NCBI RefSeq assembly: GCF_021491375.1
Contig: NZ_JAKEVY010000001.1
Coordinates: 744,001-808,000 of the forward strand
DNA from: Flavihumibacter fluminis
GTDB lineage: Bacteria > Bacteroidota > Bacteroidia > Chitinophagales > Chitinophagaceae
Length of the DNA stretch: 64,000 nt
Direction of reading: 5' to 3'
A model generated the notes under the pieces. The model had not been told where the DNA came from, did no database searches, and saw only the letters and a program-made list of their open reading frames with translations. The position numbers were made by a program, and so were the translations under genes. Within the stretch, counting starts at the first letter, position 1. The number at the start of each line of letters is the position of its first letter. Of this stretch, positions 11,547-53,582 are shown piece after piece.

Positions 11547-11607
11547 TGTCGGATTTGTACTAGTTTCCGCCCATTTCAAAAGGGATTTTTACAGTAAATA
11601 AATCGTT

Positions 11608-12504: not shown

Positions 12505-12522
12505 CAGTTCAAATGAAATCAT

Positions 12523-15727: not shown

Positions 15728-15842
15728 AACAATCGTTTTATTTGAGAGCTAACCTGGACACAATCTGTGAATTTTTCGGAGTATTCCATCTTTAACAGCT
15801 TAATTGGATAAGGAAATGAAATCATTTGGTAATTTTCAGGCC

Positions 15843-16364: not shown

Positions 16365-16386
16365 CTTAGGGAAAGCTTTCAGATAT

Positions 16387-17376: not shown

Positions 17377-17387
17377 TTTATTTAAGT

Positions 17388-18905: not shown

Positions 18906-18906
18906 C

Positions 18907-19314: not shown

Positions 19315-19357
19315 GACGAAGTTATTTGGAAGAGAAACAGGAAGGGATGAAAAGAGT

Positions 19358-20512: not shown

Positions 20513-20528
20513 ATCAGCCGCTAAAATA

Positions 20529-22547
20529 CTAAAGCCGCGCTTTTAACGGTTCTGAAAATCCAATGATCAGGTTCAAAAACAGATTTCTTCCCATACGGGG
20601 GATCCTGTTCCAATCAGCAAATGTGGTATAATACCGATTGAACAGGTTATCTACGCCACCTCTTACCTGGAAGGTATTTTTCTTCCATTTGAACTGGTAT
20701 CCGGCTCCCAGGCTTGCGATGGTATAAGCAGGTGCAGCAGTTTCACCAAATAACGGACTGAACTTCGATTGTTTTACCGCCCCATCCATGCTGGCCTCTG
20801 CAGAGAACGCATTGCTGGCATATTGCAAACGAACCCCATAAGACAATGGCTGCATCATTGGCAGATCAAGCTGCTCATTCGTAAACCCTCTGCGGTATAT
20901 TGCCTTTGCGGAAACCGATAAGCCAGAAACAATACCATAACTGGCATTCAAACTGGCGGAGTAAATAGTTGCAAATGGAACTTGCTCATAAATTTTAATT
21001 CCACTTGCGCCGATCGTCATTGGAATTAGTCCACTTGCCGGCATCCCTACTATATACCTGCGGATATGAAACCAGTTTCCCTGTCCTTTCAAACTCAACC
21101 GGTCATTCGCAAAGGCAATAGTTCCGTTCAAAGAAATGGATTGCTCATTTTTCAAACCGGGATTGCCGATATAATCAAACCGATCAAAACTGTTAAACAG
21201 ATAAAACCCATATCCTTCCGATACACCGGGTGCGCGTTCACTGTAAGAAGCACCCATCGAGAACCGCCAGCTGCCGGGCTGGTACTGCAAACTGGATCCG
21301 AAATTTTTCAACAATCGGTTTTTCACAGACTGCATATCCGGGTAAAAGATTTGCAGCGTTTTTACCCCGGCTTCATCCTTTAATTGATTCTGTTGAAAAG
21401 CAACACCGGCTGAACTATTGAGCGTCCATTTGCGATGCAACTGAAAATTATCTTCTGCAAACAATCCGGCATACCAGGTATGTACATCGGGCCAGGTGAG
21501 CATAAACATCTCCTTTTCATTCGGGTCATTCGGATACATGGTCATCTCCGCCAGGGAACGGTTATGATGCGCGCTGGCAGTTAGTTTGAACTGGTGACTG
21601 GATGATTCCCCTTCAATTCGGCTATACATCCCGGTTGTTGTACTCCAGCCGGGCATATCCATTCTTATCGGAACGACCGGACGTTTAGTGTCATCCATAA
21701 CATGGGTTACCTTATTGTGGTAAATTTTGGTTTCCCATTCCTGCCAGGTGTTTGAGAGGTGGTGACGGGTATACGCTAGGGATGCGATGACTGCTTTTGC
21801 GCTGGATACATCCATCGGAAGTGCCGGGTACCCGATATCGCGTGCATCATCATAAATAACAGAAGCTTCCACCTGTGCATGTTCATTCAGTTTATAACCT
21901 GTAGCAGCAGACAAATTGAATTTGGAAAATTGGCTATAGCTGATTTCCTGATTTTTTCCGTCGCGATAGTTCCCCGCCTTTCGAATGGTAAAATCAAGAT
22001 CGGTATACCAGCGGCTTCGGCTGTATTGAAGATCAGTGCCCAACATGCGTTGTCGGTTATTGAACTCAAATCCACTAAAGAGATGAGTCGAAAACCGATT
22101 GTTTCCAAAACCGGATTTTTTTCGAACCAGATCCAGGCTCCCTCCAATGGATGCACCATGAGCATTTCCTGCTTGCCCATTTTTTACATCGGCCCTAGAA
22201 AGATTTGTTGTTTCCACATAGGAACTGACCGGATCCATTTTATCTGTACAGGCACCGTAAATGCGCATGCCATCAATAGTGATTACTGAGCGCTCTGATG
22301 AGAGTCCATTTAACATTGGCTCCCAGGCATAGGCCCCTCTCTTGATCAGATCAACCTGCTCGTGCGAGGAAAGATATTGGTCCAGCGTACTCAACAGATT
22401 ACTGTTTTTATTCCGGCTTGCCTGGCGGGAAATCACAATTACCTCGGTTAATTCCTGAACTTTTGTAGAATCTTTTTGCGCAGATACTGTCTGACCTGTG
22501 GATGACAGGCCAGACAGTAACAATGCGCAGCATACTAGCTGCTTCAT
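20529..22547 (-). CDS. TonB-dependent outer-membrane receptor with OprC-type copper-site motifs
   Basis: A 672-residue outer-membrane receptor: signal peptide to about residue 23, no carboxypeptidase-like extension, a plug domain (about 30-150, with IVISRQASRNKN and GGSLDLVRKK) and a 22-strand barrel ending in NLFLNLIIGFSEPLKARL. In the plug, GACTDKMDP supplies C100 and M104 (CxxxM), and the barrel contains H282 and M284 (HxM in THVMDD). CxxxM plus HxM is the copper-binding set described for Pseudomonas OprC. Copper uptake is therefore a reasonable inference, supported by the Met/His-rich lipoprotein gene just upstream (10-base gap). The metal specificity has not been shown here. Confidence 0.88.
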   Translation of the reverse strand: MKQLVCCALLLSGLSSTGQTVSAQKDSTKVQELTEVIVISRQASRNKNSNLLSTLDQYLSSHEQVDLIKRGAYAWEPMLNGLSSERSVITIDGMRIYGACTDKMDPVSSYVETTNLSRADVKNGQAGNAHGASIGGSLDLVRKKSGFGNNRFSTHLFSGFEFNNRQRMLGTDLQYSRSRWYTDLDFTIRKAGNYRDGKNQEISYSQFSKFNLSAATGYKLNEHAQVEASVIYDDARDIGYPALPMDVSSAKAVIASLAYTRHHLSNTWQEWETKIYHNKVTHVMDDTKRPVVPIRMDMPGWSTTTGMYSRIEGESSSHQFKLTASAHHNRSLAEMTMYPNDPNEKEMFMLTWPDVHTWYAGLFAEDNFQLHRKWTLNSSAGVAFQQNQLKDEAGVKTLQIFYPDMQSVKNRLLKNFGSSLQYQPGSWRFSMGASYSERAPGVSEGYGFYLFNSFDRFDYIGNPGLKNEQSISLNGTIAFANDRLSLKGQGNWFHIRRYIVGMPASGLIPMTIGASGIKIYEQVPFATIYSASLNASYGIVSGLSVSAKAIYRRGFTNEQLDLPMMQPLSYGVRLQYASNAFSAEASMDGAVKQSKFSPLFGETAAPAYTIASLGAGYQFKWKKNTFQVRGGVDNLFNRYYTTFADWNRIPRMGRNLFLNLIIGFSEPLKARL

Positions 22548-22557
22548 AGTGTGTGCT

Positions 22558-23397
22558 TTAAAATTCTACTTCAAAAAACAGGCTGCTGGATTCATTATCA
22601 CCGGCAACGGGTTCCCCTTTCACGACCGTTCCATTGGCATTCAGCAATTGGAGATTAATTTTCCAGTAACCGGTCATGGTCAGGCTCAGTTTTCCCCGGT
22701 ACATCTTATCTGCCCCCTGTGTAAGGTGAATATTATTAGGTGATCCATGATTACCCATACCAGGCATGCGCGGATCAATCTGGATGGTATAGTTATCTAC
22801 CGGGTCGAATTGCATCATGTTGGTCATGGTGTAGAGCAACACACTCATATCATTTAATGCAACTTTTGGACTGGAAGGCTCCATCATCGCCAGCACATAC
22901 CGTTTGTTATCAGATCCCATTACAGATTGTACTTTTCTGCGTGTTGGATCTGTAACCTGAATGCGTTCTTTTATCGTATAGGCTTGTCCATTGATCGTAT
23001 AAGTAAGACTTAATTCCCAATATTCCATATCGTTTCCCGGCATTTGGAAAACAATAAAACCCTGGTAAGTGTATTGAGCACCCTGTTTTTTTTCAATAGC
23101 TGAAAAAGGACAGGAATGACTCATATTCATCATTTTCATAACCGGCATCCAGTTAGTGGTGGCATTGTCAACCAGGCTGCCACTGGTGGTTTTTATCTGG
23201 AAATATATGGGATTATATCCGGTTTCAAACTTTCCATTTGCTGTGTACAGGTCTATAATATGCGTGGCATTCGAGATTGATTTAACGAGAGTAAGGCCTT
23301 CCAATTCATCCGCGGGTGCGGGTTTTTCATCATTTTTGGAACAGGCGGTAAATAGTAGGGTAAGGGATAACAGTCCCCATATGAACAGAGATTTCAT
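22558..23397 (-). CDS. Met/His-rich lipoprotein, probable copper-binding partner of the receptor
   Basis: A 279-residue lipoprotein (lipobox LLFTAC, C19). Two regions resemble soft-metal sites: MPVMKMMNMSHSC (M84, M87, M89, M90, M92, H94, C96) and a second, RMPGMGNHG (M211, M214, H217). Two repeated beta-sandwich-like halves (residues about 35-140 and 160-279) recall FixH/YtkA-type domains. I do not recognise a named family. It lies between the small tri-cysteine gene and the TonB receptor gene, so the group is probably a surface metal-capture unit. Metal binding is inferred from composition and context. Confidence 0.7.
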   Translation of the reverse strand: MKSLFIWGLLSLTLLFTACSKNDEKPAPADELEGLTLVKSISNATHIIDLYTANGKFETGYNPIYFQIKTTSGSLVDNATTNWMPVMKMMNMSHSCPFSAIEKKQGAQYTYQGFIVFQMPGNDMEYWELSLTYTINGQAYTIKERIQVTDPTRRKVQSVMGSDNKRYVLAMMEPSSPKVALNDMSVLLYTMTNMMQFDPVDNYTIQIDPRMPGMGNHGSPNNIHLTQGADKMYRGKLSLTMTGYWKINLQLLNANGTVVKGEPVAGDNESSSLFFEVEF

Positions 23398-23439
23398 TTT
23401 TATAAATTAAATAATTAGACAATAGATGGGATGGAGTGC

Positions 23440-23829
23440 TTATGCTATTGTCTGCGGAGGGCGATCCGTACGGGAAAGAAACTGAAACTGATATAAATTG
23501 GAATAAACTGCAACAGGAGCAGGCTGATCAGCTACCTGAAGAGTTGGTATTTGCAGTGTGATTTTTTCTGTTGGCTGAAAGAGCAGGTATTCTGCCTGTA
23601 GGGAAACAAGGGTTTCGTTGGCTTCTTTACGTTCTTTTTCTTTCAGCAGCTGGGAGAGTTTACATTTTCCATCACAATGCAACTGAGGCCGGTCTTTATT
23701 CACACAGAATGTGTTGATAAAAGCGGTGGTATCAACCTGGTAATACATCAATAACAGTGAGTTTTTCATCGCTCCGGTAAGCACCACCAGTAATAAAACG
23801 CTGGTTACTATGTTATGAAGTAGTTTCAC
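23440..23829 (-). CDS. Small membrane-anchored protein with three conserved-looking cysteines
   Basis: A 129-residue protein if started at GTG 23829. One membrane segment (about residues 6-28) is followed by an exported part with C42, C52 and C56 in FCVNKDRPQLHCDGKCKLSQ and a charged helix KEKERKEANE. Similar short proteins with a CxxxC after an ND-rich stretch occur next to copper-type TonB receptors in Bacteroidota, but I cannot name the family. The frame extends to ATG 23883, yet a good promoter overlaps that extension, which favours the internal GTG. It is the first gene of the operon. Confidence 0.65.
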   Translation of the reverse strand: MKLLHNIVTSVLLLVVLTGAMKNSLLLMYYQVDTTAFINTFCVNKDRPQLHCDGKCKLSQLLKEKERKEANETLVSLQAEYLLFQPTEKITLQIPTLQVADQPAPVAVYSNLYQFQFLSRTDRPPQTIA

Positions 23830-23845
23830 ACGATAATATACATCA

Positions 23846-23877
23846 CAAAAGTACACTTGCTTTGATCTAATTCCAAA
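23846..23877 (-). promoter_or_regulatory. Bacteroidetes-type promoter of the metal-handling operon
   Basis: On the minus strand TACTTTTG (23853-23846) matches the -7 consensus TAnnTTTG exactly, and TTTG (23877-23874) stands 20 bases upstream at the -33 position. Transcription would begin about 5-8 bases downstream, only some ten bases before the GTG at 23829. This is the best promoter match in the window and decides the start of the first operon gene. Confidence 0.65.
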
Positions 23878-23953
23878 AAGCATTATTCAGGTAGAAAACT
23901 GATTTATATCAGGAAGAAATCCCGGAATGGCTCTATCTGCCTGTTCAACATTT

Positions 23954-24505
23954 TTACAGCATATTAGATTCCGTAACCAATGACTCGAAAGTTATCAAGA
24001 AAGTCCCCAATTCCTTTTCCGTCACTTGATCGGTTATATTACCATCAAAATCAACTTTTGATTTAACTCCCTGTATTAGCAATGTCGTCTCTTCTGTAAA
24101 TTTAGCCATGAGCGTATTCATGATCAACTTCAATTCTTTATGGCCTTCCTTCCCACTTGCTGAAGCCGTAATCAAACCTGTAGGTTTACCATTAAATATG
24201 GTTGTTGCGACACACCATTCCAATATATTTTTCAGTCCTGAGGGTATACTGAAAATATATTCAGGACTGCAGATTATTACGCCATCTGAATGTTCAATGG
24301 TTGTTCTAAGTTCGATAATGGATAAAGGCGGACAATTAGTTGAAAGTTCTGGTTCAAAGTGAGGGAAAATACGTAAATCACTATATACAATTAATTCAAA
24401 AGCAGGTCCTAACCTTTCTGATAAATAATTTATAATTTTTTGATTGGCCGAATGCTTACTGGCACTTCCAACAATTATTACAATTTTTTTGCGCTTCGAT
24501 ATCAT
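23954..24505 (-). CDS. NADPH-dependent FMN reductase (flavodoxin-like)
   Basis: A 183-residue cytosolic protein of the NADPH-dependent FMN reductase family. The phosphate-binding loop is GSASKHSANQK near the N-terminus, and the flavin-edge motif SPEYIFSIPSGLKNILEW lies at about residues 80-97, followed by KPTGLITASASGKEG. It would reduce FMN or quinone-like substrates with NAD(P)H. It follows the YrdB gene with an 8-base gap, so the two are likely co-transcribed. The substrate is not deducible. Confidence 0.88.
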   Translation of the reverse strand: MISKRKKIVIIVGSASKHSANQKIINYLSERLGPAFELIVYSDLRIFPHFEPELSTNCPPLSIIELRTTIEHSDGVIICSPEYIFSIPSGLKNILEWCVATTIFNGKPTGLITASASGKEGHKELKLIMNTLMAKFTEETTLLIQGVKSKVDFDGNITDQVTEKELGTFLITFESLVTESNML

Positions 24506-24513
24506 ATTGCTTA

Positions 24514-24870
24514 TTATTCAAGTAACCACCTGATACGTTCCCAGGAGATCAGGTAATGCAATATTGATATAGTCGCAAAAAGATTGGCAGCTTTATAGAG
24601 ATTCAAATTTCTCAGCATCCAATATCCTGCAACGAATAAAAAAACTTCCAGTATTATCCGTACCCAACCGGGTATGGCCACAATCGCTTTACCAGGATCA
24701 CCGGGGACTTTGAAAATTCCCCAAAGCAGCATACCAGCGAGCGGAATAAGCAAGCTGAACAGGTATTTTTGAAACCCTTCAAAACTATGCCACGACCAGT
24801 AAGCATAGATGCCAACCAGTACAAGTTCCAGCCCGAAACGTAACAGCAGATTAAGCGGATGATTATGCAT
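24514..24870 (-). CDS. YrdB/DUF2568 small membrane protein
   Basis: A 118-residue protein with four predicted membrane segments. The family features are LLRFGLELVLVGIYAYWSW, an internal WGIFKVPGDPG with conserved proline-glycine, and a C-terminal pair of helices ending HYLISWERIRWLLE. The DUF2568 family has no established function. It diverges from the alpha/beta hydrolase gene and precedes the FMN reductase gene. Confidence 0.85.
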   Translation of the reverse strand: MHNHPLNLLLRFGLELVLVGIYAYWSWHSFEGFQKYLFSLLIPLAGMLLWGIFKVPGDPGKAIVAIPGWVRIILEVFLFVAGYWMLRNLNLYKAANLFATISILHYLISWERIRWLLE

Positions 24871-24907
24871 GCAACTTCAAGGTAATAAAGTTAGTAAGAA
24901 AGAACAG

Positions 24908-24915
24908 TACATTTG
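24908..24915 (+). promoter_or_regulatory. -7 promoter element upstream of the alpha/beta hydrolase
   Basis: TACATTTG matches the Bacteroidetes -7 consensus TAnnTTTG and lies 22 bases before the ATG at 24938, which supports that start over the longer frame from 24869. No convincing -33 element is seen at the expected distance. Confidence 0.4.
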
Positions 24916-24937
24916 CAAATCCCTAACATGCACCCAT

Positions 24938-25873
24938 ATGAAAAAAAAAGTTTTACTGACAGTCTTTATTTTAGCCCAGCTGCTGGCTTTTTCTTCGGAT
25001 ACGACCCAAATGATCCGAACTTCAGATTCCGTTAATCTATTTGTACATATCAGTGGTAAAGGCGCACCGGTATTGTTTCTCCATGGCGGCCCTGGCTCTA
25101 ACTCGGGTTATTTTGAACATACCGGAGGAAATATATTTGAACAGGAGGTTCAGATGGTCTACCTCGACCAACGAGGATGTGGCCGTTCCGGCAAGTCGGA
25201 AAGCAGCAATTATTCACTCACAAGAATGGTTCAGGACTTTGAAGAAGTCCGGAAATCCCTGGGAATTAAACAGTGGATAGTGATGGCGCATTCGTTTGGC
25301 GGTATACTGGCAACGGCTTATGCAACAGCCTACCCGGATGCAATAAAAGCGATGGTATACCTGAACTGTACTGTAAATATAGATTCGTCAGCTACCAGCG
25401 GAATTAAACATGCTATAACACTCCTGGAAAAAAAGGGTAAAACTTATCCGGAACTAACCAATGACACCATTCCCTTATTGCAACGTTGGGGACAAGCATT
25501 TGGAAAACTTAGGGAAGAAGATTTATTCTATGGGCTGATGTTTAACAGCCGGGAGAATTTTCAGTATCATGATTCAGTTACGCTAGTCTATGGAAAAGAA
25601 TGGGATTTTGGCAATAAAGTCTGGGGATACAAAGAATATTTTGAAGACTTTATACCGGCAACAGCCAGGATTAATTGCCCGGTTTTAATAATTGGCGGAA
25701 CAAAAGACTATACCATTGGAATCAGGCATCCTGAATTGATGCGTTTTCCGGTAAAACAGGTAAAGTACGTAGAAGGTGGCCATGCCCTTTATTTTGAAAG
25801 CCGGGAACAATTATACAAAGCTGTACTTCCTTTTTTAAAGAAGTATGGAAAAACGTTACAGTCGGTCAAATAA
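24938..25873 (+). CDS. Exported alpha/beta hydrolase, proline-iminopeptidase-like (S33)
   Basis: A 311-residue protein with an N-terminal signal sequence (MKKKVLLTVFILAQLLAFSS). The oxyanion block is LFLHGGPGSNSGYF, followed by VYLDQRGCGRSG and the nucleophile elbow AHSFGG (S119), the arrangement of proline iminopeptidases and related S33 hydrolases. The acid and histidine are probably D in GGTKDYTI and H in VEGGHALYFE. An export signal is unusual for a true prolyl aminopeptidase, so another ester or peptide substrate is possible. The ATG is chosen because of the signal peptide and the upstream -7 box. Confidence 0.87.
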   Translation: MKKKVLLTVFILAQLLAFSSDTTQMIRTSDSVNLFVHISGKGAPVLFLHGGPGSNSGYFEHTGGNIFEQEVQMVYLDQRGCGRSGKSESSNYSLTRMVQDFEEVRKSLGIKQWIVMAHSFGGILATAYATAYPDAIKAMVYLNCTVNIDSSATSGIKHAITLLEKKGKTYPELTNDTIPLLQRWGQAFGKLREEDLFYGLMFNSRENFQYHDSVTLVYGKEWDFGNKVWGYKEYFEDFIPATARINCPVLIIGGTKDYTIGIRHPELMRFPVKQVKYVEGGHALYFESREQLYKAVLPFLKKYGKTLQSVK

Positions 25874-25903
25874 AGGCCAGCGACTTTCGTTGAGCCATCC
25901 TGG

Positions 25904-27169
25904 TTACTGTTTTACAAATTCTACCCGTCGGTTTAACGCTTTGTTGGAAGGTGTGTCATTGGGTGCAACCGGTTGTATTTCCCCCTTACCTTCAGAATCG
26001 ATTCGTGCGGCATCTATACCAAAGGTTTTAACTAATTCACTCTTTACAGCAGCAGCCCTGCGTATGGACAGATCGAGGTTGTTGGCATCGTTACCATCAG
26101 CATCCGTATGACCAATGATTTTTATTTTAACATCCGGATTCTCAGCTAACACATCGGCAATGCCTTTTAGGGTGCCATAAGATTCGGGTTTTATAACATC
26201 TTTATTTACATCAAAATAAATTCCGTAGGTCACCAGTTTGCCTTCCGTTATAAGCTTGCTTCGCATATCGGGAGCACCAATTGCAATCCTTACGTTGCTA
26301 ATCATCGCTGAACCGTATTCGAACCTGAGGCGATCCGGCTTTACACAACCAGTCGGGAACGCTTTCGGCAAATCGATGATTTTGTTCTGATCCTGGTAAA
26401 TCCTGATTCTTGATTTCTGTACCCAGATAGAAATATGATACTTCTGATTTATTTTTTCTTTTAGTATTTCATCTCCTACGTAACCACTCAGTTTGGCTGC
26501 AGCACATTCATCCCCATAAAACCAGGTGCTGTAACCCGGGCGACCATAATATGCTACCTCGAACTTAAATCCACCATTACCAGGAGCAGAACCTCCATCC
26601 CAGGCCTTTGCATTTTTGGCCTGCATCAATCGCATTTGCCAGCCAGACATTCCAGGACCTTCCAGGCCGCCTAAAGGAACAATATCGAACTCGATAGTAT
26701 AGTTATCTGGTAATTTAAGCAACTCATCAGTCCAAATACATTCCCGCATCGCAAATTTCATCCACTTACCGGGATAAAGATTGGTAGTTACTACTTCTCC
26801 TGTACCATTGGTGTTCCAGGCGGCGGGAAAATCACCTATTGCCTCCTGGCTAAAGTCATCATAAAACAACACTTTTTCACCCGGAACAAAATCAAACTTG
26901 GTGTACGATTGTAAAGAGGGTTCACTACCGCCGGCTGGAAGCACTGTCGTGTCATTTGCGGGTGTTGTTTCTTTTTTAGGTTCGTTGGGATTTTTTTTGG
27001 CTTTAAAAGCTGAATCCACCGCCTTGTCAGCTTCCTTGTTGATGGCCTGGTTGGCTTTATTAGTTACTTTCCGTTCCAGTACTTTTTTAGGATTAGTGAT
27101 TTGGGCACCAGCCGAGCTTGTTGAGAGAATGAAAAATGAACCCAGGAACATTATAGGAAGAGCTTTCAT
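25904..27169 (-). CDS. OmpA-domain envelope protein with an N-terminal jelly-roll-like region
   Basis: A 421-residue exported protein (signal peptide to about residue 22, SSAGAQ). A charged low-complexity helical stretch (residues 25-85, lysine and alanine rich) is followed by a beta-rich region about 90-300 (VLFYDDFSQEAIGDFPAAWNTNG..., WYGD ECAAA) resembling a lectin-like jelly roll, and a C-terminal OmpA peptidoglycan-binding domain (about 315-421) with IIGHTDADGNDANNLDLSIRRAAAVK and the terminal NRRVEF. It probably links the outer membrane to the wall. It converges on the alpha/beta hydrolase gene, 30 bases apart. Confidence 0.87.
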   Translation of the reverse strand: MKALPIMFLGSFFILSTSSAGAQITNPKKVLERKVTNKANQAINKEADKAVDSAFKAKKNPNEPKKETTPANDTTVLPAGGSEPSLQSYTKFDFVPGEKVLFYDDFSQEAIGDFPAAWNTNGTGEVVTTNLYPGKWMKFAMRECIWTDELLKLPDNYTIEFDIVPLGGLEGPGMSGWQMRLMQAKNAKAWDGGSAPGNGGFKFEVAYYGRPGYSTWFYGDECAAAKLSGYVGDEILKEKINQKYHISIWVQKSRIRIYQDQNKIIDLPKAFPTGCVKPDRLRFEYGSAMISNVRIAIGAPDMRSKLITEGKLVTYGIYFDVNKDVIKPESYGTLKGIADVLAENPDVKIKIIGHTDADGNDANNLDLSIRRAAAVKSELVKTFGIDAARIDSEGKGEIQPVAPNDTPSNKALNRRVEFVKQ

Positions 27170-27389
27170 ACTTTATCGTTTCAATAAAGGTATTATGGAG
27201 CAATAAGTTGATTTATTGACCGTGGTCAAATGCAGAAATGATTCAGGTCATAGAGGACACTTAGGCAAGTCTGTGAAACATCAATTTTATACCAACTGTG
27301 TAATTTAAAAAAATGTCTATAGATTTAAACTGCTTATCCAAAATGTGATAGTCAATTTTTGACACTTTTGGGGGACAGAAATCATAATT

Positions 27390-27593
27390 TTAAATCTTTT
27401 GAAAAAGTACAGTTTTGTCTTTCAAGGATATTTTTTTGACCTCATAACCATATTCCAGCAATTCCTTTTTATAATTCAAAAAGGAATGGTCTATTTCAAC
27501 TCCAGTAATATTCTTAATATCATCAAAAGATAATTTAAATGATGGCCCACCATTTTTCTTGATATGTTTCCACAAGAGTTCATATTTACTCAT
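27390..27593 (-). CDS. Small hypothetical protein (67 aa)
   Basis: A 67-residue soluble, lysine-rich protein beginning MSKYELLWKHIKKNG and containing FDDIKNITGVEIDHSFLNYKKELLEYGYEV. The pattern resembles a group of short proteins of unknown role in Bacillota and Bacteroidota that start with Y-x-x-L-W-x-x-(L/I)-K. A helix-turn-helix-like arrangement is possible but not convincing. The gene is AT-rich, as is the neighbouring CPBP gene. Confidence 0.6.
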   Translation of the reverse strand: MSKYELLWKHIKKNGGPSFKLSFDDIKNITGVEIDHSFLNYKKELLEYGYEVKKISLKDKTVLFQKI

Positions 27594-27744
27594 GCCTCAA
27601 AAATTGTCTTACAATGATCCTAATCGGAAGTATATTGAACTAATAAAGGATTATCCCTCTTACCGCCTGACTTACACCGGATTCTTTATAGTTTACAGTA
27701 GTTCCAAACCATTGCTCTGCCGTAGTAGATCTTTGCCCATTTCC

Positions 27745-27752
27745 TACATTTG
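27745..27752 (+). promoter_or_regulatory. -7 promoter element upstream of the CPBP protease gene
   Basis: TACATTTG, an exact TAnnTTTG match and identical to the one at 24908, ends 11 bases before ATG 27764. No clear -33 element is found at the usual 19-21 base spacing. Confidence 0.4.
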
Positions 27753-27763
27753 TATAAAAAGTG

Positions 27764-28495
27764 ATGAAACCTTCCAATTCATTTATCGCTGGTTTTCTTA
27801 TTTTATTTTTTATCTATCATTTTCCAGAGTTTTTTCAATCGTTTTGGATAACAGCGCTATTCAAAATAGGATTTCTGATTGTCGCAATAATCCTGTGTCG
27901 CTTACAGGGATGGAAGGGATTAGAAGGATATGGACTTTCTTTCAATAAGAAATGGTATTTAGTTCTGGCATCTGGACTGTTGATAGGATTCGGTGCATTT
28001 GTTTCTTCAATACTTATCTCAATCGGAATACAATTCGAACAGATTGAAAATATTCAAAGTATTGAATTCTTTCTACAAAGTATTCCACTTACTTTACTAA
28101 TGACATTCTTCCCATCGATTGCTGAGGATATTTTAACACGTGGTTATTTGTATGGACATTTAAAATTACTGAAACCAACTATATGGATTTTACTTTCTTC
28201 AACAATTTATGTCTTAAATCATATCTGGCGACTGAACGATGGGATACCAGTTTTGTCTTATTTATTTTTGCTTGGAGTTGTCTTAGCTATTAGTGTTTTA
28301 GCAAAAAGATCATTATGGTTAGCTCTTGGTATTCACTGGGGCGCCAACATCGCATATGAACTGAGCAACTCAGGCCTAAAGCTGAATTCTGTGAGTAACA
28401 AGCCTGAAACATCAACCTGGCCCCTTGCCATAGTTTGGGGATTTACTTCACTCATCTTGCTGTTCATGTATCGCCGTCAACTTAAAAACTCATGA
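27764..28495 (+). CDS. CPBP-family intramembrane metalloprotease
   Basis: A 243-residue membrane protein with six to eight hydrophobic segments. The CPBP (CAAX/Abi) motifs are present in modified form: the EExxxR motif is E121-D-I-L-T-R126, a histidine follows in the next helix (H153 in YVLNHIW), and HxxxN is H191-W-G-A-N195. Such proteins cleave membrane-bound peptides or act in bacteriocin self-immunity. The ATG at 27764 is preferred to GTG 27761. Base composition is lower in GC than the surrounding genes, a hint of recent acquisition. Confidence 0.85.
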   Translation: MKPSNSFIAGFLILFFIYHFPEFFQSFWITALFKIGFLIVAIILCRLQGWKGLEGYGLSFNKKWYLVLASGLLIGFGAFVSSILISIGIQFEQIENIQSIEFFLQSIPLTLLMTFFPSIAEDILTRGYLYGHLKLLKPTIWILLSSTIYVLNHIWRLNDGIPVLSYLFLLGVVLAISVLAKRSLWLALGIHWGANIAYELSNSGLKLNSVSNKPETSTWPLAIVWGFTSLILLFMYRRQLKNS

Positions 28496-28588
28496 AGACT
28501 GGTTACTGATGCAATTCCCTCCAACGAAGATCCCTGCTTGCACAAAATACAGGTTGGTAGTTCTGAATGAAATTCAACGCACTGCACT

Positions 28589-28621
28589 AAAAAAAGACCG
28601 CCTGTTAAGCGATCTTTTTTT
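28589..28621 (-). terminator. Intrinsic terminator following the ssrA 3' remnant
   Basis: A 13-base stem (28589-28601 with 28609-28621, seven-base loop) starts with AAAAAAAG and ends in seven T. The one mismatch on the plus strand becomes a G-U wobble on the minus strand, so the signal is better in the minus direction, directly after the tmRNA 3' end. It could also end plus-strand transcription from the CPBP gene, 93 bases upstream. Confidence 0.75.
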
Positions 28622-28643
28622 AGTGGAGCTGGGGGGAGTCGAA
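28621..28643 (-). other. ssrA: 3' end of a tmRNA gene (ssrA), remnant acting as probable attachment site
   Basis: On the minus strand TTCGACTCCCCCCAGCTCCA (28643-28624) followed by CTA is the T-loop, 3' T-stem strand and acceptor 3' strand of tmRNA. Upstream of it (higher coordinates) the partner T-stem strand, expected as GGGGG, is absent: the sequence reads TGAGCTTTG, so the gene is cut in the T-loop. Integrases of tyrosine type often use exactly this T-loop-to-3'-end segment as the crossover identity block, leaving such a remnant at one end of the inserted element. I see no intact ssrA and no second copy of this block in the window. Confidence 0.75.
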
Positions 28644-29430
28644 CAAAGCTCACAACTAATTTAATATCAATAAGATGGAAATGACAAAACCTATTAGTTC
28701 AATGAATTATTCAATCACTATTTTTACTTTGTAACGCAAACTGAAAATACGTAAATTTTATCAATAGTTTCGAAATCTTGACAAACAACTTTAGACCGCT
28801 TTTTTTCTTGTTTATCCAAAACATGATGTGTAAGTTTCATCAAAAGGAAAATTCATACCTGAAATTAATAAAAATCCCAAGCCGGACAAGTTGGAATCGA
28901 TCTCTTTTAATTTCGAATTCGTTTTTCAAGTTAAAAACAGGCATAATAAGCGGAAAATCATTACAGAATTTATTGAATACTCTGGGAAAATCAACCTAGC
29001 TAAACTCCTCAAAAACAATGTGGTTTATTTGTAGATAAAAAATTTATACACATAAATAGTAAAGTACGGCAAGGAGCAATTTTACCGCAACACGGATTAC
29101 GGGGAATTCGACATTATCGATTGTAAAACAAGATTGATTGTGTTATGTAGTTTTCTGATCCTTCGAGATTCATTTCTCTCCGCCTCTTTTCCTTTCCAGC
29201 ACATTCGCTGAATTTTGAGAATAAAAAAATAGAAGAGTTACTCTAAGAGCGGGGTTCGAACCATACTCTATAGTTTTATGAAAATCAATAAGTTGACTGC
29301 AATTAAAAAAATGAATTCAATGGTCTGTTCAAGATTCTAATATTTTTCTAAATTAAATAAAATGCTACATCTTGATTTGCATTAAAACTGGGCTCTAATT
29401 CATAGGTTCCAGTTCTGGGTATACTTAAAA
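28644..29430. other. AT-rich junction region without an intact gene
   Basis: Between the ssrA remnant and the first gene of the carbohydrate locus the DNA is AT-rich and shows only broken coding-like stretches. One runs on the plus strand at 28834-29034 after a TAA with no proper start codon; it encodes 66 residues that look protein-like (includes ISFNFEFVFQVKNRHNK and ITEFIEYSGKINLAKLL). A second at about 29056-29210 includes FYRNTDYGEFDIIDCKTRLIV. I recognise neither. They may be relics of an integrase or cargo gene. No tRNA, repeat array or terminator is visible apart from the elements listed. Confidence 0.45.
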
Positions 29431-31008
29431 CTACCTAATCCACTCCCCATTAACCAGCCTCATTATACCCAAAGGATTTTCATCCTTCAATTCCTCGGGC
29501 AACAAAAAAGAAGGAAAATTCTGATAACAAACAGGCCTTGTAAACCTGTATATAGCATAGGTTCCAACGGATGTGGATGAGGGCGCTGTTGTGGCGGGAA
29601 AAGGTCCGCCATGAACCATGGCATGGCATACTTCCACCCCTGTTGGAAACCCATTGATGATCAGTCTGCCGGCCTTTTGTTCAAGAATTGCAATCAGATC
29701 TTTATTGGCTTCCAGGTCTTCCTGGGATCCATGTATCGTCATAGTAAGATGACCTTCCATTGACTCCGCCACCTCAATAATTTCCTGCCTATTACCAGCT
29801 TCCACTACGAGGCTGCAGGGTCCAAAGATTTCATCTGATAGGACAGGATTTGTTAGCAATGTCCTGGCAGTTGTTCGAAACAATAAAGGTTGTACCGCGG
29901 TATGACCATCCGGTAACAGTCCTGATGCCAATACTTCTAAATGCTTTTCTTTGGTCCGCTCGAATACACTCTGCCTATAGGTTTGTTGAATCGCCTCTGT
30001 TAACATAATTCCACCGGCTGCTAAAGTAAATTGTTCCTTAAGTAACTCCGGAAACTGACTCTGGCCATGCTCCTGTAATACCACCATCAAACCCGGATTG
30101 GTGCAAAACTGGCCAACACCCTGGGTTACGGAAGCTGCGTAATCAAGTGCTATTTTTTTACCATTTTCTTTCATGGCACCTGGCAATACAAAAACTGGGT
30201 TGGCGCTTCCCATCTCTGCAAAAACCGGGATAGGAAAAGGTCGCTGTTGAGCAGCATCGTAAATAGCTTTACCTCCCCGGAAAGAGCCAGTGAATCCAAC
30301 AGCTTTGATTGCCGGATGTTTAACCAGGTTCATCCCGGTTGTAAAACCATCATCTTGCAACAAAGAGAAAACACCATCCGGAAGTCCACATTTTTTAGCG
30401 GCCCTGCAAATCGCCTGACCAACCAGATCAGAAGTGCCGGGATGAGCCGGATGAGCTTTCACCACAACCGGGCATCCGGCTGCAAGTGCCGATGCTGTAT
30501 CACCACCGGCAACTGAAAAAGCCAGTGGAAAATTACTTGCTCCGAATACTGCTACCGGACCCAGTGCCACTTGCATCATCCTGATATCTGGTCTTGGTAT
30601 GGGCTGGCGATCCGGCAGTGCTGTATCTATGCGGGCATTTACCCAGGATCCTTCGTGTAATAACTTCGCAAATAAATTCAACTGGCCAATTGTCCTGCTT
30701 CGCTCACCTTGCAATCGAGCCAAAGGAAGGCCGGTTTCCGTATGAGCGATGTTTATCAGTAGATCACCAAGTAATTCAATCTCATTCCCAATAGTTTCGA
30801 GAAAACCGGCACGTATTTTTGCAGGTAGCTTACGATAATCCTTATACGCTTTTTCAGCCAGGCAGGCAGCCTCATTCAATTCCGCTTCCGTAGCCCGGCA
30901 GAATGCAACAAGCAGGAGATTACCATCCGCCGGATTCTTTGCATAAAAAACTTTATTCCCCTCAGCTGAAAATTTATTTCCGATGATCTGCATTCCAATA
31001 ACTGCCAT
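29431..31008 (-). CDS. Alpha-ketoglutarate semialdehyde dehydrogenase (2,5-dioxovalerate dehydrogenase) type
   Basis: A 525-residue NAD(P)-dependent aldehyde dehydrogenase. The catalytic residues are E265 (FAEMGSANPVF) and C302 (GQFCTNPG), and the cofactor motif is GFTGSFRGGK. The length and the FGASNFPLAFSVAGGDTASALAAGCPVVVKAHPAHPG block are those of the KGSADH group, which oxidises 2,5-dioxopentanoate to alpha-ketoglutarate at the end of the non-phosphorylative pentose (Weimberg) and related sugar-acid routes. It lies 6 bases after the FAH-family gene. An internal ATG at 30993 (MQIIGNKFSAEG) is an equally good start. The oxidised aldehyde is inferred, not proven. Confidence 0.85.
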   Translation of the reverse strand: MAVIGMQIIGNKFSAEGNKVFYAKNPADGNLLLVAFCRATEAELNEAACLAEKAYKDYRKLPAKIRAGFLETIGNEIELLGDLLINIAHTETGLPLARLQGERSRTIGQLNLFAKLLHEGSWVNARIDTALPDRQPIPRPDIRMMQVALGPVAVFGASNFPLAFSVAGGDTASALAAGCPVVVKAHPAHPGTSDLVGQAICRAAKKCGLPDGVFSLLQDDGFTTGMNLVKHPAIKAVGFTGSFRGGKAIYDAAQQRPFPIPVFAEMGSANPVFVLPGAMKENGKKIALDYAASVTQGVGQFCTNPGLMVVLQEHGQSQFPELLKEQFTLAAGGIMLTEAIQQTYRQSVFERTKEKHLEVLASGLLPDGHTAVQPLLFRTTARTLLTNPVLSDEIFGPCSLVVEAGNRQEIIEVAESMEGHLTMTIHGSQEDLEANKDLIAILEQKAGRLIINGFPTGVEVCHAMVHGGPFPATTAPSSTSVGTYAIYRFTRPVCYQNFPSFLLPEELKDENPLGIMRLVNGEWIR

Positions 31009-31014
31009 AAGCTT

Positions 31015-31860
31015 TTACCCTTTTTGTGCCACAATATTGTATAAGGTCCCAATAGAGTCAATACTTACAAACACTTCATCACCTGCCAGCAATGTAAATT
31101 CATTCGGTGGTACCAACCCGGTTCCTGTCATCAGAAATACTCCATTCGGAAAGCTGGTTTCCCGGAAAAGAAAGCCGATCAGTTCTTCGTGCCCGCGCTT
31201 CATGCGATTGATCGAGATGCTTCCTTCAAACACAATAGCTCCCTTTCTTTTAATCTCAAGCCGTATTTGCGTTGCCGGATCAATTGGGTTTTTAGGAACA
31301 TACAGGCAGGGTCCGATTGCTGCTGAGGCATCGTAACTCTTGGCTTGTGGCAGATACAGCGGGTTTTCTCCTTCAATATCCCGGGAACTCATATCATTAC
31401 CACAAGTATAACCCTGTATTTTTCCAGAGGCACTTGCAAAAAGTGTCAGTTCCGGTTCCGGGACATTCCATTTCGAATCACGCCGGATATGCACGTATTC
31501 ACCTGTCCCTACGGTTCTTGCCGGTGTTGCTTTAAAAAAAAGCTCCGGTCTTTCCGCATCATACACCCTGGCATAAAAATCACCTCCGCCGGAATCTTTT
31601 GACTCTTCTATCCTGGCTTCCCTGCTTTTCAGATAGGTAACCCCGGAAGCCCAAACTTCCTGCTGGCCAATGGGAGCAAGAATTTCATCATTTAACCAAC
31701 CACCTATCATCTCTTCCGGAACTTCATTGCTAAGTTCCATTATCACCTGCTCATGCAGCTGATCGCGATTGATGAAAGCATCCCAATCTTTACCTTTCAG
31801 GAGAAAAAAATTAGTTTCGAACTGAACTACAATTCCTTTCCTCGTTTTAAAAAGTTTCAT
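31015..31860 (-). CDS. FAH-family enzyme, probable 2-keto-3-deoxypentonate dehydratase (XylX-like)
   Basis: A 281-residue fumarylacetoacetate-hydrolase-fold protein. The metal site is E135 and E137 (VPEPELTLF) plus D156 ([22 protein letters not shown]). The blocks [15 protein letters not shown] and [22 protein letters not shown] resemble Caulobacter XylX, the 2-keto-3-deoxy-D-xylonate dehydratase, and its L-arabinose counterparts. The product of that step is alpha-ketoglutarate semialdehyde, substrate of the dehydrogenase encoded 6 bases downstream. A 2,4-diketo-3-deoxy-L-fuconate hydrolase of the same fold is the main alternative, given the fucosidases nearby. Sugar dehydrogenase, lactonase and sugar-acid dehydratase genes are not in the window. 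Confidence 0.75.
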
Positions 31861-31870
31861 GCATTTCTGT

Positions 31871-33979
31871 TTAACTTAATTCAATCATCTGATGACCATT
31901 CAATTTTGGAAGGGTGATTTCTAACCTGCTGCCAACCTTTCGGAACGAAAGGGAAGTTTGCTGCGGCACTAACCTGACTTTTCGGATAGCCTTCTCTGTC
32001 TTTACTGATACTTTCAGATCATATAATGGGATAACATCTTCTATAATATCAAAGTCTGCTCCTTTACGCTCCGGCAAATAATGCAAAAGGTGCAGTACCA
32101 GGCGATTTTGCTCCGCCTGCTCGTTTAATGCGGTTACCAAAGAGGATGGTCCATTATGCTTGACAATAGGTTCTGGAATAAAAAGTTTCAATGCATTTAA
32201 GATAAACTTCTTACACCAGGCAGGTGCATTCTTTGCATACTGGCTGAATATTGGGTGCATGAAATAAATGACGCTGTCATTTTTTACAATTGCAGGATAG
32301 CCCGTCTTACCTGAAGATGGCGTGTGTTTATGGGAGGAAAAATGATCCCATTCCCGGTTGAAATAAGGAATAGTAGTTTCAGCCAGCACTTCTGCTCCAG
32401 GGTTTGTCTTCACTTCCATCCCACGTTCATACATCACCAGTTCTGTATCGGGCAAACCATCTGAAATAGCCCCACGAGTCCGGATAAAATCCGGACTGTA
32501 AGGAGCAGGGCCAACCAGGCTGACACCAAATTCATTTAAGGCAAAGGACTTACCATCAGGAGATAAACCTGACTGAAAGCTGGCAATCAATTTACCTCCT
32601 CTGGAAAGATATTGTTGCAGTTTTGACTTGAGAGCAGGATCAACAGGGATTTCATCCGGTAAGATCAACACTTTATACTTGTCAAAAGTTGAGGAAGAAT
32701 CCAGGATATCAAATTGCATGGAGCCCTCCTGCAGCAACTTTACTGCGCCTAACATGGAAGCTGGCTGTCTGACATCTCCCTTTACAAATTCTTCTGTAGA
32801 GAGCACGCCTATTTCGGTAAATGCTTTAGCACCTTCACACCAGGCCTCTTTCTCTGCTATCTGTTTGTATGCTGATCCGATCAGATCATAGGTTGCAGCA
32901 TCAAGCCGGCCTCTTGGATGCAATTGATCACCAATGGAACATCTGGCATTCATGGCTAGCATCATGGAAGTCTCAAATTCAAGTGCCGCTTTGTTTTTTA
33001 GCGAATGAAAATCACCCCAGCTTGTATGAAACTTCCCCGTCATACCCATAATATCCTGATTAAAATTTCTGGCATACCTGGCTGTCAATGGGAAGTGCAG
33101 ATAACCCCAGCCACCTGAAGGCAAGGACTCCAGCTCCAGGTGCGTATTGGAAACAAAAGTGGACCGGATTTGCGGACCCACATGGCCTCCGTTGTAGAAT
33201 ATGGTGCAATCCTTATCAAGCTTACGAATAAACGCAGAAAGGTCCTGCTTGTATTCCCTCATTACTTCTTTATAAAAATCATAGCGAACTTGTTCCTTGC
33301 TTGGATCCAGTCCCTTCTTCAGCATCGCATCAATACAATACTCATTCGCATTAGGCCTCACATGATGGATATCCAGGAATAGTCCGTCTACCGGCACCTG
33401 CTCAAAAAGATCGGCAATATAACTTTTCAGAAAATCGATATAAGGCGTCAGCACACATAGATGATTATAGAAGCCCGGGTGAAAACGGTTGGTATCACCA
33501 AAAGCGATTGGAGCACCTGCATCATCGCGCATTAGCCATTCAGGATGTTGTTTTGCGGTAAGGTAATCCCATTGAACAGTTACGTAAACCGGAGTTCGTA
33601 TACCCTGTTTATGGCAAGCTTCGATCTGCTCTTTCAGCAGGTTGCGTTTCAGGTGCGGATGGATCCTGTCTGCAAATTTCTTACTGTTGTGATAGATATA
33701 ACCATGATGGCACCGACCAAAAACGGTAACGGAATTGACATAGGCCTTCTTCAAGGTGGAAGCAAATTCTTCCGGGTCAAAATCCTGTGCCACATCAGGT
33801 ATCAATTCACTGGTATGGTAATCGAGGTGAACCTGGCGATACCTGAGGGAAGCATAGCCACCCGCGGTAAACGGGGCGGGGGCAAAACCGGCTTGCAGCC
33901 AATGGGGCAAGACAAGCAATGAAGAAGCCGCGAGGCCGGAATTTCGGATGAATGATCTTCTTGAAACCATAGTATTCAT
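31871..33979 (-). CDS. Tat-exported GH151-like alpha-L-fucosidase (GHL6 + beta-galactosidase trimerisation-like domains)
   Basis: A 702-residue protein. The start [18 protein letters not shown] carries a twin-arginine signal. The barrel domain (about residues 50-380) has the GHL6 hallmarks [55 protein letters not shown] and the acidic strand end [14 protein letters not shown] trimerisation-like flavodoxin fold ([29 protein letters not shown]) and a C-terminal beta domain follow, as in GH151 alpha-L-fucosidases. A longer frame to 34072 exists but overlaps the upstream esterase gene; ATG 33979 lies one base from that gene's stop. Fucose as substrate is inferred from family and context. Confidence 0.75.
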
Positions 33980-33980
33980 T

Positions 33981-35906
33981 TTATCGAATGGATCTGTTGA
34001 ATGGTGCTGCCGGCAATCCTTCCTTATTGAACAGTCCGGCATCAGGGTTATCTGCCCATGCATAACGGACATGCACAGGTACTTTTACATGTTCGGTGTA
34101 CACGACTACCTTATTCTCCATGATAAAGGCCCTGGCCCAATGGAATCGGCCGTCCTCACCTGCTATTTCAAACCCTTTTACCAGTCCGTATTTATCAGGT
34201 GTAAGCAGTCCACTACCGGTACTGTTAAAACTCAGAAGTAATCGGGCACCTTGGGCCTCAATAGAATCGATCTGCGGTCCTGAGGCCACCAATTTCTCTT
34301 CACCGTATGCTATCTTCCTGGCCAGCAAATTCAATCGGTATCCTACATCCATTTTATTGACAGGATGGATATCAGTTGAATCCCCAACATCAATGGTAAA
34401 CGCAAGGGCAACATTGGGCAATGTTACCGCCTCCTGCTGTGCAGCCCTTATCAAGGTATAGTTCCCAACACGGTCCGGGGGTGCGGTAAAATTGGGAAGC
34501 TGTACCACCAGGAATGGCAATTGGGGCATCTTCCAATGGCTTCGCCAGTCATTGACCAGGGCCTGAAGGTGCCAGGCATAATCGGATGGCCGGGAGGTAT
34601 TGTTCTCTCCCTGGTACCAAATCACCCCCTTCAATCCAAAAGAAGTGAAAGGCACTACCATAGAATTGAAGAGGGAAGCAGGATAACTGTTCGGCCCCCT
34701 GAACAGCATGGGGTTCCTACTGAGGAAGCCGGGCCGGAACCGCCATTCGCCGGCCAGAGAAAGGGGTCCTGAAGGTTTTAACAGATACATGTCCGTGGCC
34801 TTCCCGATGAAACCACCGTAAGACCAGAACTTATATACTTTTGCAGCAATGAGGTTACTGCCTTCCCTGAACAGGGATGCAGGCACAACATAGAACTGTT
34901 GCTTTCCTATGGTCGCAGGTCCATCCAGTAGTTTCCCGTTCACATATACTTCCGCCTTATTGTGCACCTGGCCCAGCGACAATAGCATTGGCTTCTTGAT
35001 ATCATTACCTGACAATTCAATTGATTTCCTGAACCAGCCAACCCCTTCCCCCTTATATCCCAGCACATCCCATACCGCCGGGGCAGTGATGGTTGGCCAA
35101 TCTGCATCATTGGTAACAGGGTCCTTCCAGTTTTCCCTCCCTCCCAGGTCTGCATGGATAAGCGAATCTTCCCAACGCTGCTGGCTTTCCTTTGATTGCT
35201 GCAGATAGGATTCCGGATCACCAACCGACCCCAGCCTGTCCAAAGCAGCACGATGCTTTTCCAATTGCGTAAGGGTCCCGGGACTGATCCATGGTTCAAT
35301 ATCCGTTCCACCCCAGGCACTAACAATGATACCTATGGGTACTTTTTTCTCCTGCTGGAGGAATCTTGCAAAATAAGTGGCGACGGCAGAAAAAGCCGGG
35401 GCGTTTTCAGGTGTACAGGGAAGCCATTGGGCTCCCTGCACCTCTACGGTAGCCTTACCGGCCATCAGGTGAGGTACCGTATAGATACGAATGGAAGGAT
35501 GGTCAAAGGACCTGATCGCAGCCTTCTCCTTTTCCAACCAGCCAAGTTTCCACTCCATATTGGATTGGCCGCTGCAGAACCACACATCGCCGATAATCAC
35601 ATCCTTAAGCTCAATTGTATTCTTGCCGGTAAAACTCAACAGGAATGGGCCGCCTGCAGGTAGTGCCGGCAGCAGCACTGTCCATTTTCCGTTTCGGTCT
35701 GCTTTTACAACTGCCGAATTGTTTCCCAATTGAACCCTAACCCTTTCCCCTGCATCGGCCCAACCCAACAAACGGATGGGTTGATCTCGTTGGAGGACCA
35801 TATGATCAGAATAATAGCCGGGAATGGAGACCCTGGCAGCAACCACTGTCGTCACCAGGCAGGCGAGGAAAAGAAATATGGTTCGCAATGCAGGACTAAT
35901 TTTCAT
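33981..35906 (-). CDS. Sialate O-acetylesterase-type (SASA/SGNH) carbohydrate esterase
   Basis: A 641-residue exported protein (signal peptide to about residue 24). The SGNH-like blocks are CSGQSNMEWK with S115 as nucleophile, VSAWGGTDIEPW, GVIWYQGENN and the Asp-His pair in DIHPVNKMD. Between the first and later blocks (about 220-400) an extra jelly-roll-like domain is inserted, as in many Bacteroidota members. The enzyme removes O-acetyl groups from sugars; the true sugar need not be sialic acid, and in this locus acetylated plant or bacterial glycans are more likely. It is the first gene after the IS insertion, which separates it from the SusC/SusD promoter. Confidence 0.88.
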   Translation of the reverse strand: MKISPALRTIFLFLACLVTTVVAARVSIPGYYSDHMVLQRDQPIRLLGWADAGERVRVQLGNNSAVVKADRNGKWTVLLPALPAGGPFLLSFTGKNTIELKDVIIGDVWFCSGQSNMEWKLGWLEKEKAAIRSFDHPSIRIYTVPHLMAGKATVEVQGAQWLPCTPENAPAFSAVATYFARFLQQEKKVPIGIIVSAWGGTDIEPWISPGTLTQLEKHRAALDRLGSVGDPESYLQQSKESQQRWEDSLIHADLGGRENWKDPVTNDADWPTITAPAVWDVLGYKGEGVGWFRKSIELSGNDIKKPMLLSLGQVHNKAEVYVNGKLLDGPATIGKQQFYVVPASLFREGSNLIAAKVYKFWSYGGFIGKATDMYLLKPSGPLSLAGEWRFRPGFLSRNPMLFRGPNSYPASLFNSMVVPFTSFGLKGVIWYQGENNTSRPSDYAWHLQALVNDWRSHWKMPQLPFLVVQLPNFTAPPDRVGNYTLIRAAQQEAVTLPNVALAFTIDVGDSTDIHPVNKMDVGYRLNLLARKIAYGEEKLVASGPQIDSIEAQGARLLLSFNSTGSGLLTPDKYGLVKGFEIAGEDGRFHWARAFIMENKVVVYTEHVKVPVHVRYAWADNPDAGLFNKEGLPAAPFNRSIR

Positions 35907-36002
35907 AACAAACTGGCACCAGCTAAAGCACTATATGCCATTATGAAAGTATAGAATAGGTATAGAGGGAAATTATACAATATTGGCAAATCATTAAAGG
36001 AT

Positions 36003-36011
36003 ATTAAGATG
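36003..36011. repeat. Target-site duplication, left copy
   Basis: ATTAAGATG stands immediately left of the insertion sequence and is repeated immediately right of it at 37434-37442. A perfect 9-base duplication marks the site of insertion and suggests the event is not very old. Confidence 0.8.
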
Positions 36012-37433: not shown

Positions 37434-37442
37434 ATTAAGATG
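37434..37442. repeat. Target-site duplication, right copy
   Basis: ATTAAGATG directly after the right end of the insertion sequence, identical to the copy at 36003-36011. Confidence 0.8.
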
Positions 37443-37449
37443 GTATAAT

Positions 37450-39792: not shown

Positions 39793-39793
39793 A

Positions 39794-45161: not shown

Positions 45162-45264
45162 ACAATTATTTTTTAATTGCCCAATTCTTAAATGGGCTGA
45201 CTATTTTCTGAAAATAAATTTTAGCATTACAGGAAGAAACTGGAAATTTTTCTTTAATACTTTA

Positions 45265-53577: not shown

Positions 53578-53582
53578 ATCTA

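Follow-up and report, generated by a model that had tools for sequence, protein, structure and literature searches.

Does the fragment of an ssrA 3' end in this part of the Flavihumibacter fluminis genome mark the edge of an integrated island, and if so, how was that island assembled? The window, by which we mean the whole 64,000-nucleotide stretch analysed, corresponds to C11:744001-808000 of a 4.71-Mb genome in 41 contigs; the genus Flavihumibacter belongs to the family Chitinophagaceae. A preliminary description had placed a minus-strand ssrA 3' end with its terminator at 28589-28643. This is borne out, with an exact repeat of 23 bp (28622-28644) when compared letter by letter with the genome's own ssrA. 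Positions are those of the window unless a contig is named, and the features that define the two junctions are as follows.

28589 to 28621, minus strand: intrinsic terminator directly 3' of the remnant (hairpin energy; match to G005 C161).
28622 to 28644 (C11:772622-772644), minus strand: displaced ssrA 3' end, from T-loop to acceptor end, an attL-type junction; copy 1 of the 23-bp exact repeat.
Window-equivalent 82732 to 82754 (C11:826732-826754), minus strand: copy 2 of the exact repeat, within ssrA, beyond the window.
C11:826731-827106, minus strand: complete ssrA, the sole one in the genome (130 bits, tag GNTQYAMAA*).
C11:825760-826593, same strand as ssrA: integrase fragment of 277 codons, downstream of ssrA (Pfam).
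C11:772,645-826,732: the island delimited by the ssrA repeats; it starts at window position 28645 and extends some 18.7 kb beyond the right edge of the window.

On the minus strand, 28623-28644 is a 22-mer, GTTCGACTCCCCCCAGCTCCAC, present exactly twice in the 4.71-Mb genome with up to two mismatches allowed: in the remnant and in the complete ssrA. About 5e-7 copies are expected by chance, the reversed pattern gave no genome match, and none of 100 window shuffles held the 22-mer at up to three mismatches. The T-stem 5' strand was said to be missing from the remnant, and identity with ssrA indeed stops one base short of the T-loop TTCGA; as the preceding sequence is unlike ssrA, the remnant is a 3' fragment. 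ARAGORN detected no tRNA or tmRNA gene in the window and no Rfam family reached its gathering score there, as expected for a fragment; near the remnant, nine Rfam matches at E up to 10 all fell below their own cut-offs. The terminator, AAAAGATCGCTTAACAGGCGGTCTTTT followed by a T-run, has a predicted energy of -12.2 kcal/mol, lower than all 50 of 50 shuffles.

The complete ssrA was expected to the right of the remnant, in the same orientation and with the same block, and was found 54,110 bp rightward, the length of the repeat unit, sharing the 23-bp block. The integrase had been supposed to lie at the far end or to be lost, and both apply: the gene adjoins ssrA at the far end, and half of it is gone. 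What remains contains Arm-DNA-bind_5 and Phage_int_SAM_5 domains without a Phage_integrase domain (Pfam), and tracks seven aligned homologues (407-417 aa) up to FLFQCY, then diverges before the catalytic part. The catalytic half was not found elsewhere in the island, where other matches had E values of 0.06 or worse. Set beside the features by which Islander-type islands are recognised, the locus therefore has an intact ssrA at one end, a same-strand 3' fragment at the other, and between them, by ssrA, a tyrosine integrase gene with its catalytic domain cut off.

Relatives were also searched for an empty site, and one was found in genome G005, on a single 3.2-kb contig (C161) of a 55%-complete bin, in which ssrA runs directly into the remnant's terminator and then into parts of the window's left flank. 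Bases 1-2224 of this contig match C11:828975-826729 at 91.2%, bases 2199-2253 match window 28644-28589, and further pieces match 27618-27395 and 27364-27189; 27619-28588 has no counterpart in C161. The terminator after ssrA in C161 is 96% identical to that of the remnant over 56 aligned columns including the core, so that the earlier term "native terminator" holds for the C161 allele; other relatives carry different terminators at this spot, and for this reason the remnant's terminator may itself stem from an older insertion layer. Another contig of the bin, C226, begins with a 99-base ssrA 3' end identical to that of F. fluminis and, about 1 kb past this end, continues with the left flank from 25838 to 20343, minus 23916-24519. 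That a bin only 55% complete should have two ssrA ends points to a mixture of strains or to copies left unresolved.

The flanks were further compared with Flavihumibacter cheonanensis WS16 (G004).

8822 to 25855, no strand: left flank, collinear with G004 (91.3% identity over 15,098 bp, 89.0% over 1,345 bp).

Collinearity continues until about 400 bp before the ssrA remnant in G004. Both island flanks are about 91% identical to G004; in that genome the interval between the flanks is taken up by 108 kb of different DNA with the same 22-mer at its two borders. Separately, we observed that 25856-28588, which runs from the alpha/beta-hydrolase gene to the remnant and includes an OmpA gene and its neighbours, is missing at the G004 junction and in G005 C226 and partly present in G005 C161 and G008 C14; it is possibly an older layer at the same ssrA site.

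Taken together, the repeat, the intact ssrA, the integrase fragment and the empty site bear out the view that the DNA rightward of the remnant, from 28645, is an integrated island. That the 22-23 bp block is instead a leftover of ssrA duplication or a chance match, with no integration, is hardly conceivable: its shortness is the one point in favour, set against the minute expected copy number, the integrase fragment at ssrA, the empty site, and second core copies in G004, Flavihumibacter sp. UBA7668 (G014) and G007 (there on another contig).

We then considered the DNA between the junctions.

29431 to 64000, minus strand: cargo within the window (Pfam).
36090 to 37322, plus strand: IS transposase (DDE_Tnp_1/DUF4372; Pfam).

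Thirty island ORFs were scanned against Pfam, including the integrase fragment and the IS transposase, and two had no Pfam family. Within the window the cargo encodes aldehyde dehydrogenase, FAA hydrolase, GHL6, acetylesterase, GH127-like and FAD oxidoreductase proteins; SusD-like and SusC-like proteins, a FecR anti-sigma factor, MFS, sigma-70, alpha-L-fucosidase and GH95; and beta-lactamase-like and S9-like hydrolases, an MGH1-like GH and a beta-helix protein. Beyond the window, up to C11:825740, follow GHL6, GH2, DUF4397, SusD, FecR, SDR, altronate/galactarate dehydratase and an AraC regulator; outside the 30 scanned ORFs, L005:9715-13296 looks SusC-like and L005:14536-15129 sigma-like. No relaxase, coupling protein or Tra gene occurs among the 30, whose only recombination genes are the tyrosine-type integrase fragment and the one IS transposase, with no DsiB serine recombinase module. 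The IS is probably a recent insertion, since a 99% identical 1.24-kb copy lies at C11:1356390-1357630.

Cargo searches spanned window 29431-61900 and L005:1000-18740, scored 7 or 20 candidates per genome and, in two cases, list matches at E 1e-50 or better. No orthologue-level match to 42000-61900 was obtained in 38 relatives; the best-scoring was 72% over 1.1 kb, with higher identities only in pieces of up to 219 bp. For 29431-42000 in 14 genus relatives, the matches listed comprised only IS pieces (79% over 1.3 kb and 84% over 284 bp), and for L005:1000-18740 the best among those listed in the same 14 were 73% over 1.6 kb and 77% over 0.8 kb. The altronate dehydratase stretch has a 67-73% match in all 14 relatives and at another site in the F. 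fluminis genome. Cargo G+C is 44.7%, equal to that of the flanks (44.9 and 46.4%), and so composition gives no foreign mark; the integrase fragment has 35.4%.

These properties bear on a scenario that overlaps with the two-insertion reading set out below, in which two real insertions bracket the region and the 52-kb carbohydrate cluster was a subsequent addition, through rearrangement or homologous exchange with Flavihumibacter-like DNA. Late arrival would explain the host-like composition of the cargo, set between an AT-rich stretch at the left (30.5% G+C over 28645-29430) and the AT-rich integrase fragment; the truncated integrase frame ends about 20 bases from the AraC gene. The searched cargo has no orthologue-level copy in the 14 genus relatives, in which a donor is thus not visible, and we regard this scenario as less likely than not.

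The left end of the island resembles that of a known type of element.

28645 to 28836, no strand: left end of the element, with 93% identity to the end of the element next to the ssrA remnants of G004 and G014.
28837 to 29430, no strand: AT-rich stretch with no ORF of at least 90 aa and no blastn match to the G004/G014 element.

The 93% homology to G004 and G014 covers 192 bp, or 215 bp with the core. Both of these genomes hold a CTnDOT-type ICE in ssrA, which they share over 92 kb in pieces of 97.9-100% identity, whereas the DNA surrounding ssrA shows only 81% and 79% identity; the ICE has therefore moved recently. In G004 it encodes TraG, TraJ, TraM, a relaxase and a coupling protein, with a full integrase beside ssrA, and the 16 kb nearest ssrA differ in G014 (loci L120, L121, L128-L131 and L046, the last at G004:C110:1643227-1735337; L122, L132-L137 and L055 in G014). 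One scanned cargo protein of the ICE is an RND efflux pump (ACR_tran). Outside the left end and the ssrA side, the F. fluminis island and the G004 or G014 stretch share just one DNA match of at least 100 bp (144 bp, 68-69%).

We also observed, 600 bases inside the island at 29244-29262 on the minus strand, a tRNA-like T-loop plus 3' half, GGTTCGAACCCCGCTCTTA, which may be chance; it is the single genome copy at up to two mismatches, and one of 100 shuffles matches at up to three.

The two ends do not pair. In the G004 ICE, TTCATTGAA occurs three times near the right end and once near the left, and the F. fluminis left end likewise carries one copy (28698, minus strand), whereas the arm between the F. 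fluminis integrase and ssrA has four copies of GGTGACCAA within 74 bases and none of TTCATTGAA. As the 129.5-kb G004 stretch contains TTCATTGAA at five further positions and the 108-kb F. fluminis stretch at four, one of these inside the F. fluminis integrase fragment, these repeats are soft, supporting evidence only for mismatched ends; two copies per 300 bases are no excess over shuffles. The F. fluminis right end was absent from all 13 other genus ssrA genes read; the element left ends available for comparison come from only three further genomes of the genus (G004, G014 and G007). Integrase arm sites generally match at both ends of an element.

Given an ICE-type left end and a right end with another integrase lineage and other repeats, we propose that C11:772,645-826,732 is a hybrid island in the ssrA 3' end, left by two successive ssrA insertions, and put the probability of this at roughly 0.8, a value lowered because few left ends were read. 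The mismatched ends and the lack of an orthologue-level match for the searched cargo in relatives join the repeat, intact ssrA, integrase fragment and empty site as its observed basis. The original proposal of an integrated island from 28644 thus stands; what could not be seen from the window is that the ends belong to different elements, which would make the island a hybrid and not the product of one simple insertion. Some points count against the hybrid reading. Neither an inner junction nor a second-element body is visible in the sequence, and the same picture would be expected from a single element, one end of which had been exchanged; the empty site is on one contig, and C226, the bin's second ssrA end, has other downstream DNA, which may reflect mixed strains.

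The single-element alternative is that a modular element, with an ICE-like left end and an integrase end of the other lineage, inserted once and later decayed. Exchange between elements sharing one target site is plausible, and no internal core copy remains: within the 108 kb around the island there is no third copy at up to five mismatches, the next-best site having six (shuffled patterns yield a mean of 0.3). We judge it improbable nonetheless, in view of the TTCATTGAA copies near both ends in G004 as against the differing repeats here, a short motif, and of the right end's occurrence in none of the 13 other ssrA genes, a weak comparison with left ends from three genomes.

Under the preferred two-insertion reading, a tyrosine integrase would have crossed over inside the 23-bp block between T-loop and acceptor end, the element bringing a replacement 3' end that keeps ssrA intact at the right junction and displacing the old 3' end to the left. 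The left end would derive from the CTnDOT-type ICE family that occupies ssrA in both F. cheonanensis WS16 and Flavihumibacter sp. UBA7668; the right end, which adjoins ssrA, would come from a different integrase lineage. As a rule, tandem elements enter at the position closest to the intact target gene. Because new ssrA elements would insert next to ssrA, the ICE-type insertion, which lies farther away, would be the first and the second type the later. The cargo would have arrived on one of the two elements. Later deletion or recombination would then have eliminated the inner junction, together with the genes for conjugation and the integrase's catalytic half. The remainder would be a fixed polysaccharide-utilization island, presumably immobile by its own integrase.

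Insertion at ssrA recurs across the genus. A homologous integrase lies beside ssrA in 5 of the 14 genus ssrA genes with downstream DNA read (G000, G004, G007, in which it is shortened, G008 and G014), counting homologues of the F. fluminis integrase only. Four of the five genomes with such an integrase carry a second core copy at up to one mismatch, compared with none of eight without (Fisher p 0.007; the test covers those 13 of the 15 genus genomes that reach 90% completeness); in G007 and G014 it sits on another contig. G005 and G010 were excluded as incomplete, and G005, with two core copies and no integrase match, runs against the trend, so that its inclusion would weaken the test. As a side observation, the host side of the G004 remnant (L120) and G005 C226 (L124) have short AAGGTAAGG / ATAAGGTAA repeats and a different terminator after the ssrA core, an arrangement like the arm of another element since lost. 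When repeated 9-mers were counted over the 300 bases that follow each of 19 core copies, the count exceeded that of 100 of 100 shuffles at three of them: the G000 ssrA, the G004 remnant and G005 C226.

In the family, integrase matches at E 1e-40 or better were obtained in 53 of 294 genomes, F. fluminis counted, with open frames mostly of 400-440 aa and few shorter. At 29 family loci around such matches, the gene next to the integrase was a tmRNA gene in 3, a tRNA gene in 21 (14 Ser, 3 Asn, 3 Asp, 1 Thr) and neither in 5. On a 36-row integrase tree the tmRNA label requires at least four changes; the F. fluminis row has a long branch of unsure placement. In wider genome contigs, 18 pattern matches yielded no confirmed close relative of the fragment, and the one island-end pattern run against viral contigs gave no match.

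Terminator-like hairpins were then surveyed beside target genes. A T-run hairpin follows within 110 bases of 18 of 19 genus core copies under a relaxed rule (5 T in 6; the miss is G007 C39), at most 2 of 50 shuffles being as low, and of 13 of 19 under a strict one (6 T in 7). Each element type has its own hairpin sequence, and so it seems that new terminators arrive with the insertions. Among integrase homologues in the family, a hairpin follows 28 of 31 target genes (misses: L163, L178, L183), starting 0-37 bases past the gene, mostly 17-29 (loci L155-L183, L063 and L109-L113, within the first 85 bases past the tRNA/tmRNA gene).

Twenty-seven of the 31 arms, chosen post hoc, align as one 13-bp hairpin with 94.3% paired cells, compared with 76.7% when shuffled and at most 65.0% when slid; excluded were the F. 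fluminis arm, G004 (a near copy of G008 and G014), L163 and L183. Every terminator self-pairs, so this covariation is partly built in, and the model search weighs more. Over 55 sources, some containing training arms, the hairpin model matched at E 1e-3 or better in 11: four training-arm sources, two near copies at ssrA (G004, G002) and five of seven integrase loci without a recognised target (L156, L158, L171, L173 and L114; not L175 or L118). The G001 ssrA, which has no integrase match, gave E 0.006. At E 1 or better nothing was matched in the window, L005, L163 or L183, or at ssrA of G003, G005, G006, G009, G011, G012 or G013.

At E 1e-4 the model matched in 55 of 195 family genomes, F. fluminis not among them. 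Of 30 best-match loci, 22 start within 10 bases of a tRNA/tmRNA 3' end and 17 have a downstream integrase homologue; without training arms these counts are 16 and 11 of 24. We rejected the hairpin as a marker of these integrases alone, as 13 of the 30 loci lack a downstream homologue of the integrase set (their ORFs were judged by eye). Its occurrence thus extends beyond this integrase family, and at such sites it may be native or may have outlasted a lost element. A generic tRNA terminator is unlikely given that 140 of 195 genomes are without a match at E 1e-4, although strict filtering also discards weak matches. Five training loci scanned with Rfam gave no family at gathering score for the hairpin. 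The hairpin was also seen at some 3'-fragment-like sites without a homologue of this integrase, and as same-orientation pairs 12-35 kb apart in G136:C9, G078:C21, G100:C16, G204:C3 and G022:C1; such pairs are what would be expected of tandem elements, or of an element plus a displaced junction.

We tentatively posit, at somewhat below even odds, that Chitinophagaceae elements with Arm-DNA-bind_5/SAM_5 integrases carry a conserved, covarying T-run hairpin in the attachment arm at the restored tRNA or tmRNA gene, which would replace the displaced terminator and shield int from the target promoter. Were this so, the elements would repair not only the target RNA but also its termination, the different hairpin at the F. 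fluminis right end would have the same role, and ssrA in the genus would be a layered insertion record of which this window shows a fused, immobile stage.

Tandem ssrA islands are already known, and the terminator-like hairpin at the targets of related elements may be the newer observation; an earlier paper by Williams is entitled "Traffic at the tmRNA gene". Among the matches listed from openly licensed literature (titles and abstract starts), none concerned ssrA elements in Flavihumibacter. In the excerpted Islander report, the tmRNA gene is more enriched as an island target than any tRNA type, and tandem arrays at one target are recognised (PMC4383910). The present locus shares with islands of that type, as excerpted, the intact tmRNA gene, the displaced 3' fragment opposite and an integrase gene between, and differs in combining the ends of different elements, in having lost the inner fragment and in an integrase cut short of its catalytic domain (PMC4383910). 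The Dehalococcoides ssrA islands, as far as the excerpted account describes them, likewise have a 20-bp ssrA 3' repeat, T-loop insertion, several tandem islands downstream and catabolic cargo, some possibly fixed; there the recombinase is the serine type DsiB within a six-gene module, whereas here it is a tyrosine-type Arm-DNA-bind_5/SAM_5 integrase in Bacteroidota (PMC3146451). The CTnDOT-type ICE of F. cheonanensis WS16 and of Flavihumibacter sp. UBA7668 corresponds to the present island at the left end only, the right end being of another type, and no conjugation gene is among the island ORFs scanned here. For ICEKp1 in tRNA-Asn, the excerpted source states that insertion moves the target's terminator to the far end and places int under the target promoter, and proposes stem-loops before int as a terminator-like attenuator (PMC13023037). 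Those loops, as there described, lie in the int 5'-UTR of one ICE; the hairpin here is close to the target gene and recurs in many elements that share one integrase family.

A 23-base fragment is thus enough to set the limits of a 54-kb island that would escape notice by composition, its cargo having the G+C of the host. Mismatched ends would expose layered insertions even after the inner junction has vanished, and island finders could include a test of whether the two ends pair. The survey marks ssrA as an insertion hotspot in Flavihumibacter, linked to an ICE almost unchanged between two species, and our analysis suggests a way in which a glycan-degradation cluster can become fixed, through mobility loss of the elements surrounding it.
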